DNA from: Burkholderiales bacterium
GTDB lineage: Bacteria; Pseudomonadota; Gammaproteobacteria; Burkholderiales; Burkholderiaceae
Assembly (NCBI GenBank): GCA_947447845.1
Contig: CANFNO010000236.1
Coordinates: 1 to 5,476, forward strand
Reading direction: 5' to 3'
DNA: 5,476 nucleotides
The first letter of the stretch is position 1. Each line of letters starts with the position of its first letter. Under the pieces are notes generated by a model. It saw only the letters and a list, made by a program, of their open reading frames with translations. It ran no database searches and was not told the origin of the DNA. Shown piece by piece: positions 150 through 5,097 of this stretch. A program made the position numbers and the translations under genes.

Positions 150-1013
150 TTAGCTGCAACGTGCGGCAGCAGCGGAGATGGCGCGCTTGGTCATTTCGGC
201 GGCCATGGCGGTTTTGTATTCAGCGTCACCGCGCAAGTCTTCTGCGGGATCGCAGATGGCGCGCACGGCTTGGGCTGCGGCTTCCAGTGAGGCTGCGTTG
301 ATGGGCTGGCCGATCAGCGCGGCCTCGGCATCGCGGGCGCGCAGTGCGGTGGGCGCGACATTGGTCAGGCCGATGCTGGCGTGGGTCACCACATCGCCCG
401 ACATACGCAACACCACGGCGGCACCGGCGGTGGCCCAGTCGCCAGTCTTGCGCTTGAGCTTCTGGTAGGCGCTGCCAGTGCCGGCGGCAAAGGGCGCGAT
501 CAGGATGGCGGTGAGGATTTCGTCTTCGGCCAGCGCCGTCATGTAGGTGCCGTGGAAGAAGTCCACCGCCTTAACCTGGCGCTCGCCCTTCGGGCCTTGC
601 AGCACAAAGGTGGCGTCCAGCGCCATGGCAATGGCGGGGTGGTCGTTGCCGGGGTCGCCGTGCGCAATGTCGCCACCAATGGTGCCGCGGTTGCGCACTT
701 GGGGATCGGCGATCAGCTTGGCCGCTTCACCCAACAGCGGCAGTTTTTCTTTCAGCAAGGCTGAGTCAATCAGTTCGCTTTCGCTGGTCATGGCGCCAAT
801 GCGGATAACACCGCCTTGTTCGCTGATACCGCGCAGTTCGGGAATGCGGTTGATGTCGATGAGCGCACCGGGTGCGGCAAAGCGTAGCTTCATCATGGGC
901 AGCAGGCTGTGGCCGCCGGCCAGCAACTTGGCTTCATCACCAAGGGATGAAAGCAGCGAAATGGCTTCAGTAACCGAGCGCGGCGCGTGGTAATCAAATG
1001 CGGGTGGAATCAC
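150..1013 (-). CDS. coxM: CO dehydrogenase medium (FAD-binding) subunit
   Basis: This is the FAD subunit of aerobic molybdenum-copper CO dehydrogenase (CO + H2O to CO2 + 2 e- + 2 H+); it takes electrons from CoxS and delivers them to the respiratory chain. The 287-residue length matches known CoxM (about 288). The two FAD pyrophosphate motifs sit at the expected places: AGGHS at 32-36 and TIGGD at 111-115, followed by HGDPGNDHPA. KLKRKTGDWATAG, near residue 190, is a CoxM/CutM hallmark in the middle to C-terminal part. The whole sequence strongly recalls CutM of Hydrogenophaga. The start is GTG at 1011-1013, with AAGGAGA at 1018-1024 about 4-5 nt upstream. An in-frame TAA just above rules out a longer product, and the next in-frame ATG would remove the first FAD motif. 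It is first in a coxM-coxS order, downstream of rcoM. Confidence 0.96.
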   Translation of the reverse strand: MIPPAFDYHAPRSVTEAISLLSSLGDEAKLLAGGHSLLPMMKLRFAAPGALIDINRIPELRGISEQGGVIRIGAMTSESELIDSALLKEKLPLLGEAAKLIADPQVRNRGTIGGDIAHGDPGNDHPAIAMALDATFVLQGPKGERQVKAVDFFHGTYMTALAEDEILTAILIAPFAAGTGSAYQKLKRKTGDWATAGAAVVLRMSGDVVTHASIGLTNVAPTALRARDAEAALIGQPINAASLEAAAQAVRAICDPAEDLRGDAEYKTAMAAEMTKRAISAAAARCS

Positions 1014-1056: not shown

Positions 1057-1062
1057 ACTTTA
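1057..1062 (-). promoter_or_regulatory. Candidate -10 element of the coxM promoter
   Basis: The minus strand reads TAAAGT (4 of 6 with TATAAT), about 44 bp before the coxM start codon. No good -35 hexamer lies 17 bp upstream, as expected for an activator-dependent promoter. The third repeat of the array at 1093-1139 would be centred near -42 to -43 relative to the implied start, the usual place for an activator touching RNA polymerase. A similar hexamer (TACAGT) sits at nearly the same offset from the second array. It is inferred from sequence only. Confidence 0.45.
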
Positions 1063-1092: not shown

Positions 1093-1139
1093 CAATCAAC
1101 GGTCATTGCGGCGCATGAACAACCGGTTGGATGCACGAA
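1093..1139 (-). promoter_or_regulatory. Triplet direct-repeat array upstream of coxM, candidate RcoM operator
   Basis: Reading toward coxM, three 7-bp cores are spaced exactly 20 bp: TTCGTGC (1133-1139), TTCATGC (1113-1119) and TTGATTG (1093-1099). The third sits in ACCGTTGAT (1095-1103), which fits the published LytTR consensus as I recall it ([TA][AC][CA]GTTN[AG][TG]). RcoM of Burkholderia xenovorans is reported to bind triplets of direct repeats about 21 bp apart; the regular spacing, the LytTR-like core and the adjacent rcoM gene argue for the same here. The third copy is the weakest match. A chance TTCATGC also occurs inside rcoM, so the spacing is the evidence, not the single core. Confidence 0.6.
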
Positions 1140-1150
1140 GCAGACGCGAC

Positions 1151-1957
1151 TCAGACTTTGGCCAGCGTCGTATCGCTCAAGCCCAGATGCTCCATCAGCC
1201 GCGCCGCACTGGAGCGCGCGACCGGTATCTCGACCGGTGTGGAGCCCATCATGCGCAGGGTGATGCGCCCGTCATCACGCACGATTTCATCGACCTGGCT
1301 GAGGTTGACGATGTAGCTGCGGTGCACCCGGAAAAACAGGTTTGGGTCGAGCCGGGTTTCCAGATCGCCAATGGTGATATTGCAAAACTGCCCGCCCTGT
1401 GCGTTGTGCACCCAGGTGTAGTGCCCCTCGGAGCGGATGAAGGACACTCCGAACACATCCACCAGCAACACGCGGTTTTGTTTGATGGTAGGAATCTTGC
1501 GCAACTGCCGTTTGGGCGCGGGCTGCTGGCTGCTGGCAACTGCGGGTTCGGCGTCTTTGCTCACCACGTCGGTGATGTCATAGAAGACCAGCGTGTAGCC
1601 GTTGGTCTGCCCTTGCATGTCGGCGATCTTGGAGACCTTGATCAGCAGTACGCGCTCGGGAATGTTGATCATCATGGCCATGGGCGGGGCGTTGTTCACC
1701 GGGCACTCGGCCTGGCCCAGCAGGAACTTGACTTTGGCCTTGGCCGCCTCCGGATGGAAGTCGGTGACGATTTTTCCAAAAGGCATTTTGTCCTGCACCG
1801 GCAGGCTGCGCCGCGCGTAATCGTTCATGCCGGTGACGTGCAATTGCACATCCAGATGCACCACCCCCACATCAAAACGCTCTAGTAGATAAAGCCAGGA
1901 ATTCGGATTGGATGCGCCGGAAGGGCCCGCTCCGCCAACGTGCTTGCAGGATGTCAT
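1151..1957 (-). CDS. rcoM: RcoM-type CO-sensing transcriptional regulator (PAS-heme + LytTR)
   Basis: This is a single-component regulator, expected to be cytoplasmic, that binds CO at a heme in its N-terminal PAS domain and then activates CO-oxidation genes. The 268 residues divide into a PAS domain (about 21-131: FDVGVVHLD near the start, closing strand YTLVFYDITDV), a polar Ala/Pro/Gln linker (133-150) and a LytTR DNA-binding domain (about 155-260, with FFRVHRSYIVNLSQV at 208-222 and IPVARSSAARL at 244-254). It has no transmembrane segment, unlike the LytTR proteins CoxC and CoxH. In RcoM the reported heme ligands are His74, Cys94 and Met104. The counterparts here look like His68, Cys85 and Met95; the Cys-to-Met distance of 10 is kept. 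The ATG at 1955-1957 follows purine-rich GAGACGAGAC. It lies upstream of coxM on the same strand, 137 bp away, and divergent from the membrane protein operon. Heme binding is inferred. Confidence 0.88.
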   Translation of the reverse strand: MTSCKHVGGAGPSGASNPNSWLYLLERFDVGVVHLDVQLHVTGMNDYARRSLPVQDKMPFGKIVTDFHPEAAKAKVKFLLGQAECPVNNAPPMAMMINIPERVLLIKVSKIADMQGQTNGYTLVFYDITDVVSKDAEPAVASSQQPAPKRQLRKIPTIKQNRVLLVDVFGVSFIRSEGHYTWVHNAQGGQFCNITIGDLETRLDPNLFFRVHRSYIVNLSQVDEIVRDDGRITLRMMGSTPVEIPVARSSAARLMEHLGLSDTTLAKV

Positions 1958-2010
1958 GTCTCGTCTCTTTATGTTTTAGAAATCGGATTAAAGCGTGCCC
2001 GACGCCATCG

Positions 2011-2057
2011 CTCATGCCGGGCCACGGTTACTCATGCGCGGTGTAAGCATTTCGTTC
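2011..2057 (+). promoter_or_regulatory. Second triplet direct-repeat array, candidate RcoM operator for the divergent operon
   Basis: The three cores are CTCATGC (2011-2017), CTCATGC (2031-2037) and TTCGTTC (2051-2057), each 20 bp apart and reading toward the plus-strand membrane protein gene. The middle copy, within 2025-2039, matches the middle copy upstream of coxM (1111-1125, minus strand) at 13 of 15 positions. Core orientation, spacing and the offset to a -10-like hexamer all repeat the coxM arrangement. The array also lies 54-100 bp upstream of the rcoM start codon on the opposite strand, so it could affect rcoM itself. RcoM as the bound protein is inferred from the neighbouring gene and from the reported triplet architecture. 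Confidence 0.6.
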
Positions 2058-2086: not shown

Positions 2087-2092
2087 TACAGT
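2087..2092 (+). promoter_or_regulatory. Candidate -10 element of the membrane protein-xdhC promoter
   Basis: TACAGT (4 of 6 with TATAAT) begins 33 bp after the centre of the third direct repeat; in the coxM promoter TAAAGT begins 34 bp after its third repeat. There is no recognisable -35 hexamer. It implies a transcription start near 2099 and a leader of roughly 85-90 nt if translation begins at 2186. It is inferred by comparing the two promoters. Confidence 0.4.
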
Positions 2093-2133: not shown

Positions 2134-2160
2134 GCATCGGGTTAACCCTTGTGCCGATGC
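2134..2160 (+). other. Hairpin in the leader of the membrane protein gene
   Basis: GCATCGG (2134-2140) pairs perfectly with CCGATGC (2154-2160) around a 13-base loop. A 10-bp palindrome, GGGTTAACCC (2139-2148), overlaps its left arm. A good Shine-Dalgarno-like GGAGG (2130-2134) sits at the foot of the stem but has no in-frame start codon at normal distance. There is no T-run after it, so it is not a typical intrinsic terminator. It may be an RNA structure affecting translation, or chance. Confidence 0.35.
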
Positions 2161-2185: not shown

Positions 2186-2881
2186 GTGGCCATCCTCAAC
2201 ACACAAACGAATTGGCTGGCACGCGGCATCGGGTCTTCCTCTTTCACGCCCGCCTTGCTCATCAGTCTGGTGGGTGGGGCCTTGTGGTTTGCCGATCGGC
2301 AGTCTCCGCTGGTCACGGTGGATGCCGTGTGGCCAGTCATATTGCTTTCTCTTTTTGCAGTGGCAGCGGGCTGCGCCGCGCTGAGTTGGGTGCGACCTCA
2401 GCGCGTCGGACTGTCGCCGCCCCATGTCATGTTGTCGCTGGGATTTGGCGGCATGCTGTTGGGCCTGTTGGCAGACTGGCTGCATGCGGGCCCGGCACAA
2501 CTAGGCAGCCTGTGCCAGCAAGCCGCAACACTCACATTTCGCGAAAGTTTTTCCCTGCATCTGCGCTACTTGCCGGGCATGCACGTCGGCATGTTGTTGG
2601 GCGGCCTACTGGCCATCCCCAGTCTGCGCATGCTGCGTTCGCATTGCGGGCGATATCTGTGCTCGCTGCTCACACAAAACCTCTTGTGTTCGGGCTGGAT
2701 GCTGGTGGGCATGACCCTGGGCGCGGTCTGGATGGTGCGGTTGCAGATCGCGCTGGACGCGCCTTCTTTAACCGGCATGCTGGGCGGCATGTTTGTCGGC
2801 ATGACCTGGGGAATGGTGGGCAGCGTGGCGCTGTACCGGCAGTTTTTTGCGCTGCGCAACCGGACGGCAAAAGGTACCTGA
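2186..2881 (+). CDS. Integral membrane protein of unknown function, Gly-Met-rich, about six helices
   Basis: I do not recognise this family. From GTG 2186 the product is 231 residues, with hydrophobic segments near 22-36, 47-69, 81-99, 130-147, 166-184 and 196-216, and a basic tail. Each of the last four carries a G-M-[LT]-[LW]-G pentapeptide (89-93, 135-139, 175-179, 205-209), a GxxxG-type packing motif with Met second. There are 12 internal Met, five Cys and a PGMHVGM stretch at 130-136. The open frame runs back to 1940, but the upstream part is polar, overlaps rcoM antisense and lies before the proposed promoter. GTG 2111 is the alternative start, and neither has a good Shine-Dalgarno. It lies 12 bp before xdhC, probably in one operon, behind a repeat array like that of coxM, which suggests a role in CO oxidation. 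Cofactor, copper or CO handling would be speculation. Confidence 0.75.
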   Translation: MAILNTQTNWLARGIGSSSFTPALLISLVGGALWFADRQSPLVTVDAVWPVILLSLFAVAAGCAALSWVRPQRVGLSPPHVMLSLGFGGMLLGLLADWLHAGPAQLGSLCQQAATLTFRESFSLHLRYLPGMHVGMLLGGLLAIPSLRMLRSHCGRYLCSLLTQNLLCSGWMLVGMTLGAVWMVRLQIALDAPSLTGMLGGMFVGMTWGMVGSVALYRQFFALRNRTAKGT

Positions 2882-2893
2882 ACGGAAGACACA

Positions 2894-4012
2894 ATGGAAA
2901 ACCTCGATGGAATGGTGCTGCGCACCTTGCGTAATTGGCGGGCCGACTCCCGCCCTGCACTGCTGGCGACCGTGGTGCGAACCTGGGGCTCATCGCCGCG
3001 CCCGGTAGGCTCGATCATGGCCTTGTGTGCCGATGGCTCGGTGGTGGGTTCGGTGTCCGGTGGCTGCATCGAGGACGACCTGATCCACCGCTTTACCCAG
3101 GCCTATGCGCAGCCCCACGCGGCGGCGTCGGACGAGCCACAGCAACTTCCCGAAGGGCCACCGCGCTTGCTAACCTATGGTGTGAGCGCCGATGAGGCCC
3201 ATCGTTTTGGGCTGCCCTGCGGCGGCACGCTGGAACTGTTGCTGGAGTTTGACCCGGCGGTGGACGCACTGGACACGCTGCTGGCCTGGCTGGACCAGGG
3301 CTTGCTGGTGGAGCGCAGCGTGGCGCTTGACACGGGGGCCGCCACAGTGCGGCTGTGCAGCCAGCCCTCGGATTTGAAACTGAGCGCCAACACCCTGACC
3401 AATGTGTTCGGGCCGGAATACCGCCTGCTCATCATTGGCGCCGGGCAGATGAGTGAATACCTGGCCACCATGGCGCAGTTCAACGGCTTTGCGGTCACCG
3501 TGTGCGACCCGCGCGAGGAGTACCGCGCCAGTTGGTCAGTACCCGGCGTGCAGGTGCTGCAGGACATGCCGGACGACACCATGGCCCTGTTCAAGCCGGA
3601 CCGCCGCAGCGCCGTGGTGGCACTGACGCACGACCCCAAGCTGGATGATCTGGCTTTGCTGGAAGCCATTCACAGTGAAGCCTTTTATATCGGCGCGATT
3701 GGTTCGCGGCGCAACAACCTGGCGCGCAGTGCCCGCATGATGGAGCACTTTGGTGCCAGCGCCGCCGATCTGGCCAAGCTGCGCGGGCCCATCGGCATTT
3801 ACATCGGCAGCAAGACGCCGCCTGAAATCGCGGTCAGCATCATGGCCGAACTGCTGGCAGTAAAAAACGGTGTCAACCTGCCTCGGGACATCCAGGTAGG
3901 ACCGGCCAAAGATGATTTGGCCGTGCAGGAAAACCACGCCGACGCGCTGGCCTGCGGCATCGGCATGGCTTCCATTGGACAGATTTACAGCAGCGAGTCG
4001 GCGGGCACGTAG
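2894..4012 (+). CDS. XdhC/CoxI-family molybdoenzyme maturation protein
   Basis: XdhC-family proteins hold the molybdenum cofactor and help sulfurate and insert it into xanthine dehydrogenase-type enzymes. CoxF and CoxI of CO dehydrogenase clusters belong to this family, and CoxF has been linked to completing the Mo-S-Cu site. The 372-residue protein has the N-terminal XdhC/CoxI domain (RTWGSSPRPVGSIMA at 29-43, SGGCIEDDL at 55-63, LPCGGTLELLLE at 107-118) and a C-terminal Rossmann-like XdhC domain (GAGQMSEYLA at 182-191, LTHDPKLDD at 244-252, YIGAIGSRRN at 265-274, then GPIGIYIGSKTPPEIAVSI). The full two-domain form looks intact. The ATG at 2894 has GGAAGA at 2884-2889 and lies 12 bp after the membrane protein stop. 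Serving the nearby CODH is inferred from context; a xanthine dehydrogenase elsewhere could also be its client, so I give no cox letter. Confidence 0.92.
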   Translation: MENLDGMVLRTLRNWRADSRPALLATVVRTWGSSPRPVGSIMALCADGSVVGSVSGGCIEDDLIHRFTQAYAQPHAAASDEPQQLPEGPPRLLTYGVSADEAHRFGLPCGGTLELLLEFDPAVDALDTLLAWLDQGLLVERSVALDTGAATVRLCSQPSDLKLSANTLTNVFGPEYRLLIIGAGQMSEYLATMAQFNGFAVTVCDPREEYRASWSVPGVQVLQDMPDDTMALFKPDRRSAVVALTHDPKLDDLALLEAIHSEAFYIGAIGSRRNNLARSARMMEHFGASAADLAKLRGPIGIYIGSKTPPEIAVSIMAELLAVKNGVNLPRDIQVGPAKDDLAVQENHADALACGIGMASIGQIYSSESAGT

Positions 4013-5097
4013 GTCTTGCCCAGGGCCAGGGCCACGGCTTCGTAAGTGACCTTGCCTTCGGCGACGTTCAGGCCGTTTTTCAGGTGCACATTGTCTTTGA
4101 GCGCTTGCTTCCAACCCTTGTTGGCCAGCGTAACAGCGTGGCCGATGGTGGCGTTGTTCAGCGCAAAGGTTGAGGTGCGGGCCACGGCGCCAGGCATGTT
4201 GGCCACGCAGTAATGAATCACACCGTCGACCACAAAAGTGGGCTCGGCGTGGGTGGTGGCGTGCGAGGTCTCGAAGCAGCCACCCTGGTCAATCGCCACG
4301 TCCACCAGCACGGCACCCTTTTTCATCTTGCCAATCATGGCGCGGGTCACCAGCTTGGGTGCCGCAGCACCGGGAATCAGCACACCGCCGATGACCAGAT
4401 CGGCGTCCAGCACAGCTTCTTCGACGGTTTGCACATTGGAGTAGACGGTGTGGATGCGGTTGCCAAAAATCAGGTCGAGTTGGCGCAGGCGCTCAATGCT
4501 CTTGTCGAGCACCGTGACCCTGGCCCCCATGCCCACGGCCATTTGCAGCGCGTGCGTTCCCACGACACCAGCACCCAGAATCACGCAGTGGGCAGCGGGC
4601 ACGCCAGGCACACCGCCCAGCAACACGCCCATGCCGCCCTTGGATTTTTCCAGGTGCGCGGCACCGGCTTGCACCGACATGCGGCCGGCCACTTCGCTCA
4701 TGGGGGCCAACAAAGGCAAGCCGCCGCCAGGGCCGGTAATGGTTTCGTAGGCGATGCAAATAGCACCCGACTTGATCAGCGCTTCGGTCTGCTCGGGGTC
4801 CGGAGCCAGGTGCAGGTAGGTGTACAGAATCTGGCCGGGGCGCAACATGGCGCATTCCTGCGGCTGCGGCTCTTTGACCTTGACGATCATTTCTGACGCT
4901 GCGAAGACTTCGGCAGCGGTGGCGGCCAGAGTGGCACCAGCGGCCAGGTATTGCTCATCGGACAGGCCGATTTCGGCACCGGCACCCGTCTGCACCAGGA
5001 CGGAGTGGCCGTTTGATGTCAACTCGCGCACGCTAGCCGGGGTGAGGCCGACGCGGTATTCGTTGTTTTTGATTTCCTTGGGTAGTCCGATGCGCAT
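3985..5097 (-). CDS. ald: Alanine dehydrogenase
   Basis: This is a cytosolic NAD-dependent enzyme that interconverts L-alanine and pyruvate plus ammonium, in alanine catabolism or nitrogen assimilation. The 370 residues match the usual length. The known active-site residues fall at their standard numbers: Arg15 (YRVGLTP), Lys75 (KVKEP), His96 (YLHLA) and Asp270 (DVAIDQGG). The NAD-binding Rossmann motif GAGVVG is at 175-180, with the acidic Asp198 ending the next strand. The ATG at 5095-5097 has AGGAG at 5104-5108, 6 nt upstream. The gene runs tail-to-tail into xdhC and overlaps it by 28 bp. A methyltransferase lies upstream on the same strand across a 152-bp gap, so ald probably has its own promoter. 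No lrp/asnC-type regulator is in view. No link to CO metabolism is visible. Confidence 0.97.
   Translation of the reverse strand: MRIGLPKEIKNNEYRVGLTPASVRELTSNGHSVLVQTGAGAEIGLSDEQYLAAGATLAATAAEVFAASEMIVKVKEPQPQECAMLRPGQILYTYLHLAPDPEQTEALIKSGAICIAYETITGPGGGLPLLAPMSEVAGRMSVQAGAAHLEKSKGGMGVLLGGVPGVPAAHCVILGAGVVGTHALQMAVGMGARVTVLDKSIERLRQLDLIFGNRIHTVYSNVQTVEEAVLDADLVIGGVLIPGAAAPKLVTRAMIGKMKKGAVLVDVAIDQGGCFETSHATTHAEPTFVVDGVIHYCVANMPGAVARTSTFALNNATIGHAVTLANKGWKQALKDNVHLKNGLNVAEGKVTYEAVALALGKTYVPADSLL

Follow-up and report, generated by a model that had tools for sequence, protein, structure and literature searches.

Paired outward-facing triplet arrays flanking rcoM: predicted RcoM operators at two candidate CO-controlled promoters in Comamonadaceae and relatives

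Which genes are controlled by two sets of regularly spaced short repeats that lie on either side of a gene for an RcoM-type regulator, and which protein would bind them? The question is raised by a stretch of 5,476 nucleotides from a Burkholderiales bacterium (contig CANFNO010000236.1), here called the window at its full length, in which rcoM lies between coxM and a divergently oriented membrane protein gene. A first-pass annotation had suggested that these repeats form matching triplet arrays of one CO-controlled regulon with two promoters. The best explanation of the data as a whole, in which we place considerable confidence, is that both arrays are predicted RcoM operators for two CO-controlled promoters.

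Genes, regulator and repeats of the window

The features on which the analysis is based are:

150..1013, minus strand: coxM, FAD subunit of aerobic CO dehydrogenase (287 aa; Pfam FAD_binding_5 and CO_deh_flav_C)
1057..1062, minus strand: -10-like hexamer TAAAGT of the predicted coxM promoter
1093..1099, minus strand: coxM array site 3, TTGATTG, divergent third repeat
1113..1119, minus strand: coxM array site 2, TTCATGC
1133..1139, minus strand: coxM array site 1, TTCGTGC
1151..1957, minus strand: rcoM, PAS and LytTR regulator (268 aa; Pfam LytTR, 1e-19, and PAS_10, 4.1e-5)
2011..2017, plus strand: divergent array site 1, CTCATGC
2031..2037, plus strand: divergent array site 2, CTCATGC
2051..2057, plus strand: divergent array site 3, TTCGTTC, divergent third repeat
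2087..2092, plus strand: -10-like hexamer TACAGT of the predicted divergent promoter
2186..2881, plus strand: membrane protein gene, predicted RcoM target (231 aa; start taken as GTG 2186)
2894..4012, plus strand: CoxI-like XdhC family protein, downstream of the membrane protein gene (372 aa; Pfam XdhC_C and XdhC_CoxI)
3985..5097, minus strand: alanine dehydrogenase

The regulator carries, in a single protein, the N-terminal PAS domain (residues 24-129) and the C-terminal LytTR domain (residues 162-258) by which RcoM proteins are recognised. Its H68, C85 and M93/M95/M96 align with the same motif in relatives: among 72 rows the His motif is present in all, the Cys motif reads CPV or CPA in 71 and CPI in the remaining one, and the strict Met pattern occurs in 63, each of the other nine retaining a Met there. 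We take the His and Met of the PAS domain to be the haem ligands and the Cys to be the ligand of the oxidised form; judged against these relatives, none of which goes by the name RcoM, the window protein possesses the predicted haem-ligating His, Cys and Met. The coxM product is 63% identical to the coxM-position protein of Paraburkholderia aromaticivorans. At the far end of the window, the CoxI-like and alanine dehydrogenase genes overlap tail to tail by 28 bases (3985-4012), and alanine dehydrogenase occurs in the available flanks of only four of 70 loci (L001, L002, L003 and L005). These 70 loci, the rcoM relatives used throughout, were taken from genome contigs, mostly of Comamonadaceae and other Burkholderiales; the best 33 of the 70 are from metagenome-assembled genomes throughout, and the nearest, L001, is 93% identical to the window rcoM.

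On recomputation, the two triplet arrays are confirmed as real, the coordinates, letters and 20/20 steps given for both in the first-pass annotation being correct. Checked by eye, its further readings hold as well: T occupies core positions 2 and 5 in all six cores, the middle copies of the two arrays are identical at 13 of 15 bases, and the -10-like hexamer follows the last core centre at +34 (TAAAGT) or +33 (TACAGT). Published RcoM1 operators consist of three direct repeats TTCNNGCA with 12-13 bp spacers, situated upstream of the -35 element (PMC11347149); the triplet spacing of about 21 bp given in the first-pass annotation was therefore right in kind, since 12-13 bp between 8-bp repeats amounts to 20-21 bp.

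How far such a pattern may arise by chance depends on the model with which it is sought. The published motif TTCNNGCA, as given in that paper (PMC11347149), was used as a flat motif at steps of 20-21 (maximum 18 letters) on the window and on 300 dinucleotide shuffles of it. The coxM array scores 14/18 in the 20/21 register and 13 in the 20/20 register, and the divergent array 13/18, tied with an unrelated plus-strand triplet at 705. Since 97 of the 300 shuffles score at least 14 somewhere, the window alone is no proof of the arrays, and the expectation that shuffled sequences would not yield equal periodic matches failed for the flat motif. It was upheld with held-out position profiles, trained on the intergenic regions of 65 rcoM loci of less than 83.5% identity, with the window and its five nearest relatives (L001-L005) left out, the published core as seed, contributors scoring above 8 bits and thresholds of our own setting. 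With these profiles the coxM array of the window scores 27.8 and the divergent array 24.4, values reached by none of 500 window shuffles (maxima 21.3 and 11.7, respectively) and lying above the maxima in 280 rcoM-coding pieces (-0.01 and 6.69). Both arrays were recovered in all six held-out rows (the window and L001-L005); profile scores outside L001-L005 are partly built in, because those loci were training candidates. The best opposite-strand triplet in the window is in each case the other array, the coxM model on the plus strand pointing to 2011 and the divergent model on the minus strand to 1139. The cross-scores themselves (-2.8 for the coxM array under the divergent model and 2.6 for the divergent array under the coxM model) are ordinary by comparison with shuffles, whose maxima average -3.4 and -3.1 (SD about 4). 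The two arrays of the window thus differ from each other, above all at site 3.

Conservation, third repeat and promoter geometry

The cores with 20-21 bp periodicity are kept in orthologous intergenic regions, as the first-pass annotation had proposed to check. The coxM array was scored in 66 of the 70 loci. The other four are L053, where the search region cut off site 1, which adjoins the rcoM stop (the array was present on a later scan), L054, where the contig ends with 342 bases left, and L069 and L070, which have coxM on the opposite side of rcoM. Over 67 rows including the window, the steps are 20/21 in 42, 20/20 in 16 (the window among them), 21/21 in eight and 21/20 in one. The divergent array is present in the window and in all 51 loci with the membrane protein gene beside rcoM, with 20/20 steps in 50 of these 52 arrays; the counts exclude a match in L070, which lies without the membrane protein gene. 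The membrane protein had no match at 19 of the 70 loci. In two of these, L029 and L030, the sequence ahead of the rcoM match amounts to no more than 124 and 249 bases. The upstream flanks of the remaining 17 score 14.4 at best, a value found in L070, which has coxM on this flank; the 9.4 of L046 and the 10.1 of L050 come from some 2.6 kb away.

Conservation is concentrated in the cores. In three array sets (42, 16 and 49 distinct sequences) the core columns hold 1.90, 1.77 and 1.72 bits, against 0.75, 0.84 and 0.93 bits in the spacers, and in each set this difference was equalled in none of 10000 column permutations. Sliding the frame by one base leaves the divergent set about equal (1.76 vs 1.72), and larger slides are lower. 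Three further observations concern the coxM side in relatives. In L001 and L005 the array lies 606 and 430 bp from the rcoM stop, displaced by 400-600 bp of extra, partly repetitive and mutually similar DNA. In L036, L037 and L041 a further TTCATGC stands 20-21 bp before site 1, which suggests a fourth repeat in some Polaromonas coxM arrays. In L079, whose regulator is an RcoM relative of about 40% identity, two flat-motif triplets of 14/18 each lie between rcoM and coxM, perhaps as two operators for one promoter region.

The individual sites differ in how they relate to the published motif. Site 1 of the coxM array reads TTCGTGC in 59 of 67 arrays, including the window, and G at position 6 is almost always kept in sites 1 and 2, which in the window read TTC or CTC-NN-GC. 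Site 3 (TTGATTG in the window's coxM array, TTCGTTC in its divergent array) misfits TTCNNGCA and yet is itself conserved: TTGATTG is found in 40/67 coxM arrays, TTCGTTC in 37/52 divergent arrays, and T at position 6 in 61/67 and 52/52, respectively. A G at this position of coxM site 3 occurs in L062-L066 and L068 (n = 6), whose RcoM proteins are 57-61% identical to that of the window; in L061, of the same group, site 3 reads TTTCGTG in the chosen register. Five of these seven have TTCGTGC as third core, and six have 21/21 steps. As far as these sequences go, the third site in the window's clade falls outside the published three-repeat consensus.

Downstream of site 3 the geometry is nearly fixed. 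In the coxM arrays the best TANAGT-like hexamer begins 37 (n = 58), 38 (n = 8) or 35 (n = 1) bases after the start of site 3, ties having been broken toward offset 37; it is an exact TANAGT in 43/67, and one of the 58 rows at offset 37 matches in only two of five letters. All 52 divergent arrays have a -10-like hexamer 36-38 bases after the start of site 3, exact in 50. About 30 bp separate the end of site 3 from the predicted -10 hexamer, and the expected -35 begins about 14 bp after the start of site 3, with no good one seen by eye in the window. The arrays are thus placed upstream of the -35 position of their target promoters, as expected of RcoM operators, these promoters being predicted. 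By analogy, the layout would be that of an activator just upstream of -35, as with RcoM1, and unlike that of CoxC (PMC11347149).

Short elements also occur in both leaders. Between the predicted divergent -10 and the membrane protein gene lies GGGTTAACCC (window 2139-2148, plus strand), which is GGGTTTACCC-like in relatives; at least eight of the nine letters of GGGTTNACCC occur in 45/52 leaders, a count made without shuffle control. On the coxM side, a perfect palindrome, TATGGGGTCCCCATA, occupies 1027-1041 of the leader, immediately before the ribosome-binding site, and other short inverted repeats were seen by eye near the equivalent place in several relatives.

The membrane protein gene and the extent of the regulon

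The 231-aa membrane protein has no match in Pfam and none in a PDB sequence search. It has 447 homologues at E 0.001 or better, is called solely hypothetical protein where named, and its near-copy P0001 has a helical structure model (pLDDT 81.7). Its sequence is rich in invariant Met, His and Cys motifs (PGMHxGM, CSxWMxxGM and MLGxMFxGMTWGM); C63, H80, M82, M90, C110, H125, M132, H133, M136, C154, C159, C168, M172, M176, M198, M202, M206 and M210 are invariant as judged from the 26 of 120 sequences listed, and the P. aromaticivorans homologue retains most of the second-half residues, except C154 and C159. No sequence similarity to CoxH/MHYT proteins was seen: hhalign against the Afipia MHYT protein that precedes CoxI gave 0.5% probability over 8 columns. 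The protein encoded downstream, at 2894-4012, has the XdhC_CoxI and XdhC_C domains and the cox-cluster place of a CoxI; of the XdhC proteins in the Afipia cox cluster, it is 28% identical (1e-32) to the second, which we take to be in the CoxI position, and it matches CoxF-position proteins more weakly (2e-5 and 3e-12).

The place of the membrane protein gene in other genomes links it to cox clusters. On plasmid pBN2 of P. aromaticivorans (NZ_CP022992.1), a rcoM-type gene is divergent from ompW-coxM-S-L, and coxL is followed by genes for SRPBCC, MoxR, CoxE-type VWA, XdhC with YHS, nucleotidyltransferase, a 228-aa hypothetical protein and XdhC. The 228-aa protein is 40% identical to the window membrane protein over 116 residues (E 1e-19), and the last XdhC is 46% identical to the window CoxI-like protein. 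A search with the membrane protein alone matched six of 399 family genomes, five of which have rcoM and the array and duplicate loci already in the rcoM set. The sixth, G561 (locus L086), has a homologue of 40% identity and no RcoM match in its available stretch; there the homologue directly follows a CoxE-type VWA gene and an XdhC-YHS protein, in the order seen in the Paraburkholderia cluster.

Fourteen genomes have an rcoM locus without the divergent array. Seven of them contain a membrane-protein match; in the other seven, including L051 of the Ramlibacter group, this match is absent. In all seven with the distal gene (mostly Ramlibacter) the order is collinear, rcoM-array-coxM-S-L-G-D-E-mocA-membrane protein gene, the latter being last among the genes searched for. 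The second array is absent from these seven collinear stretches, the sole triplet above 8 being the coxM array or overlapping it, and no CoxI-like gene was found there after the membrane protein gene. A distal membrane protein gene goes with one array, and a membrane protein gene across rcoM with two. The CoxI-like gene directly follows the membrane protein gene at 33 of the 51 loci (among the remaining 18, four break off within about 310 bases), so that the gene always paired with the divergent array is that of the membrane protein and not coxI. In a quick RcoM tree labelled by the position of the membrane protein gene, the arrangement changes once (SH-aLRT 82), and none of 500 label shuffles gave as few changes. 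Rooted with P. aromaticivorans, L069 and L070, the divergent unit appears to be derived, in a tree that warns of long branches; since arrangement and array arose once on it, the 51 co-occurrences are non-independent.

The extent of the regulon was approached with a strict pattern, YTCRTGC-N13-YTCRTGC, scanned in 19 genomes chosen from rcoM loci and hits, a pattern that misses weaker or 21-bp arrays elsewhere in the genomes. It gave 37 matches, 30 at the rcoM locus and seven elsewhere, against six in the reversed control; in one genome (G344) the two-core pattern is absent at the rcoM locus. With 30 of 37 matches at the locus and the off-locus number near that of the control, the distribution fits the proposal of one regulon with two promoters. 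That proposal is supported overall, with RcoM binding and CO control as predicted parts of it.

Having its own array in the window's clade and a distal cox-cluster place elsewhere, the membrane protein is a predicted RcoM target. We know of no explanation of how copper is delivered to CO dehydrogenase. A conserved protein with invariant Met, His and Cys residues, with its own predicted RcoM array across rcoM, and with CoxE-type VWA and XdhC-YHS neighbours in L086 may have a metal role, perhaps for copper; we consider it rather unlikely that the Mo-Cu centre of CO dehydrogenase receives its copper through this protein.

Alternative readings and known systems

According to the explanation that we prefer, both arrays would be operators recognised by the LytTR domain of the RcoM whose gene lies between them. 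CO on the PAS-haem domain would lead to cooperative binding of RcoM to each triplet, and the bound protein would switch on a promoter that has a TANAGT -10 but lacks a good -35. With the first -10 base set at -12, site 3 would lie at about -49 to -43, and sites 2 and 1 would start at -69 and -89. Taking transcription units from gene order, the coxM-side array would drive coxM and the cox genes behind it; the targets of the divergent array would be the membrane protein gene and, at loci that have it there, the CoxI-like gene. In clusters where the membrane protein gene is distal behind coxMSL it presumably shares their mRNA; after its probable move across rcoM, its own array would keep it under the same CO control.

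The divergent array starts 53 bp upstream of the rcoM start codon and, at 50 of 51 loci, lies 27-59 bp from the equivalent of the window's first RcoM residue, and it might therefore serve autoregulation, blocking or boosting the rcoM promoter, instead of the membrane protein gene. We consider this unlikely, as the repeats point away from rcoM with the -10-like hexamer 36-38 bp past the site 3 start, toward the membrane protein gene, in 52/52 arrays, the array of L060 is 348 bp from rcoM (its membrane-protein match starting 658 bp from the rcoM match), and the seven genomes with the membrane protein gene behind coxMSL keep rcoM without a divergent array; a single array can nevertheless act both ways. 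Somewhat less probable still is that RcoM represses both promoters until CO binds. The model for this would be CoxC of Afipia, a LytTR regulator that likewise acts through three direct repeats at a cox promoter; its operator overlaps the -35, whereas site 3 here lies upstream of the -35 position, as with the activating RcoM1 (PMC11347149).

That another LytTR regulator, or some other protein, binds the arrays strikes us as quite improbable. The array core is a general LytTR-like motif, and three genomes (G002, G003 and G004) hold additional weak matches to the LytTR region of RcoM; against this, G001 has both arrays with one match to the RcoM query and no further LytTR-like match, and the two-core matches cluster at the rcoM locus. 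The notion that the repeats arose by chance, or were inherited as background within intergenic DNA that changes slowly, can draw on the flat-motif control, which in the window is at chance level. It is nearly dismissed by the direct test in which spacer columns have diverged and core columns have not, and by the held-out profile scores of both arrays.

Activating RcoM operators at both promoters thus remain the preferred reading. What is new is a second, divergent promoter, predicted to serve an uncharacterised gene whose place in some other genomes is within the cox cluster. For a clade of Comamonadaceae and relatives the locus provides a candidate CO regulon with two promoters, compact and defined by its sequence, together with dozens of natural operator variants for testing how RcoM reads its triplets, and it makes a conserved membrane protein a predicted part of the CO dehydrogenase system, for which a maturation or metal-supply role is directly testable.

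For RcoM-1 of Paraburkholderia xenovorans LB400, Kerby and Roberts reportedly footprinted two regions (2012, J Bacteriol 194:5803). The triplet form, the spacing and the place upstream of the cox-promoter -35 described for the LB400 operators are shared with the window; the third repeat of the window's clade differs by lacking G at position 6 at both promoters, and the window has two outward-facing arrays flanking rcoM, the second of them before a membrane protein gene. The pBN2 cluster of P. aromaticivorans shares the rcoM-type gene, coxMSL, accessory genes and a membrane protein homologue directly before an XdhC (CoxI-like) gene, but there the membrane protein and CoxI-like genes are distal in the cox cluster and the rcoM-type gene is divergent from ompW-coxMSL. 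CoxC of Afipia carboxidovorans OM5 is described as a membrane-bound, CO-responsive MHYT repressor with three LytTR direct repeats at PcoxB that overlap the -35 (PMC11347149). Three LytTR direct repeats at a cox promoter are thus common to both systems, whereas the window regulator is a PAS-LytTR protein and its sites lie upstream of -35, without overlapping that box. Because their architecture matches that of the published RcoM operators (PMC11347149), the most plausible reading of the sites is as RcoM operators of the known triplet type, with a variant third repeat and a paired, outward-facing arrangement.
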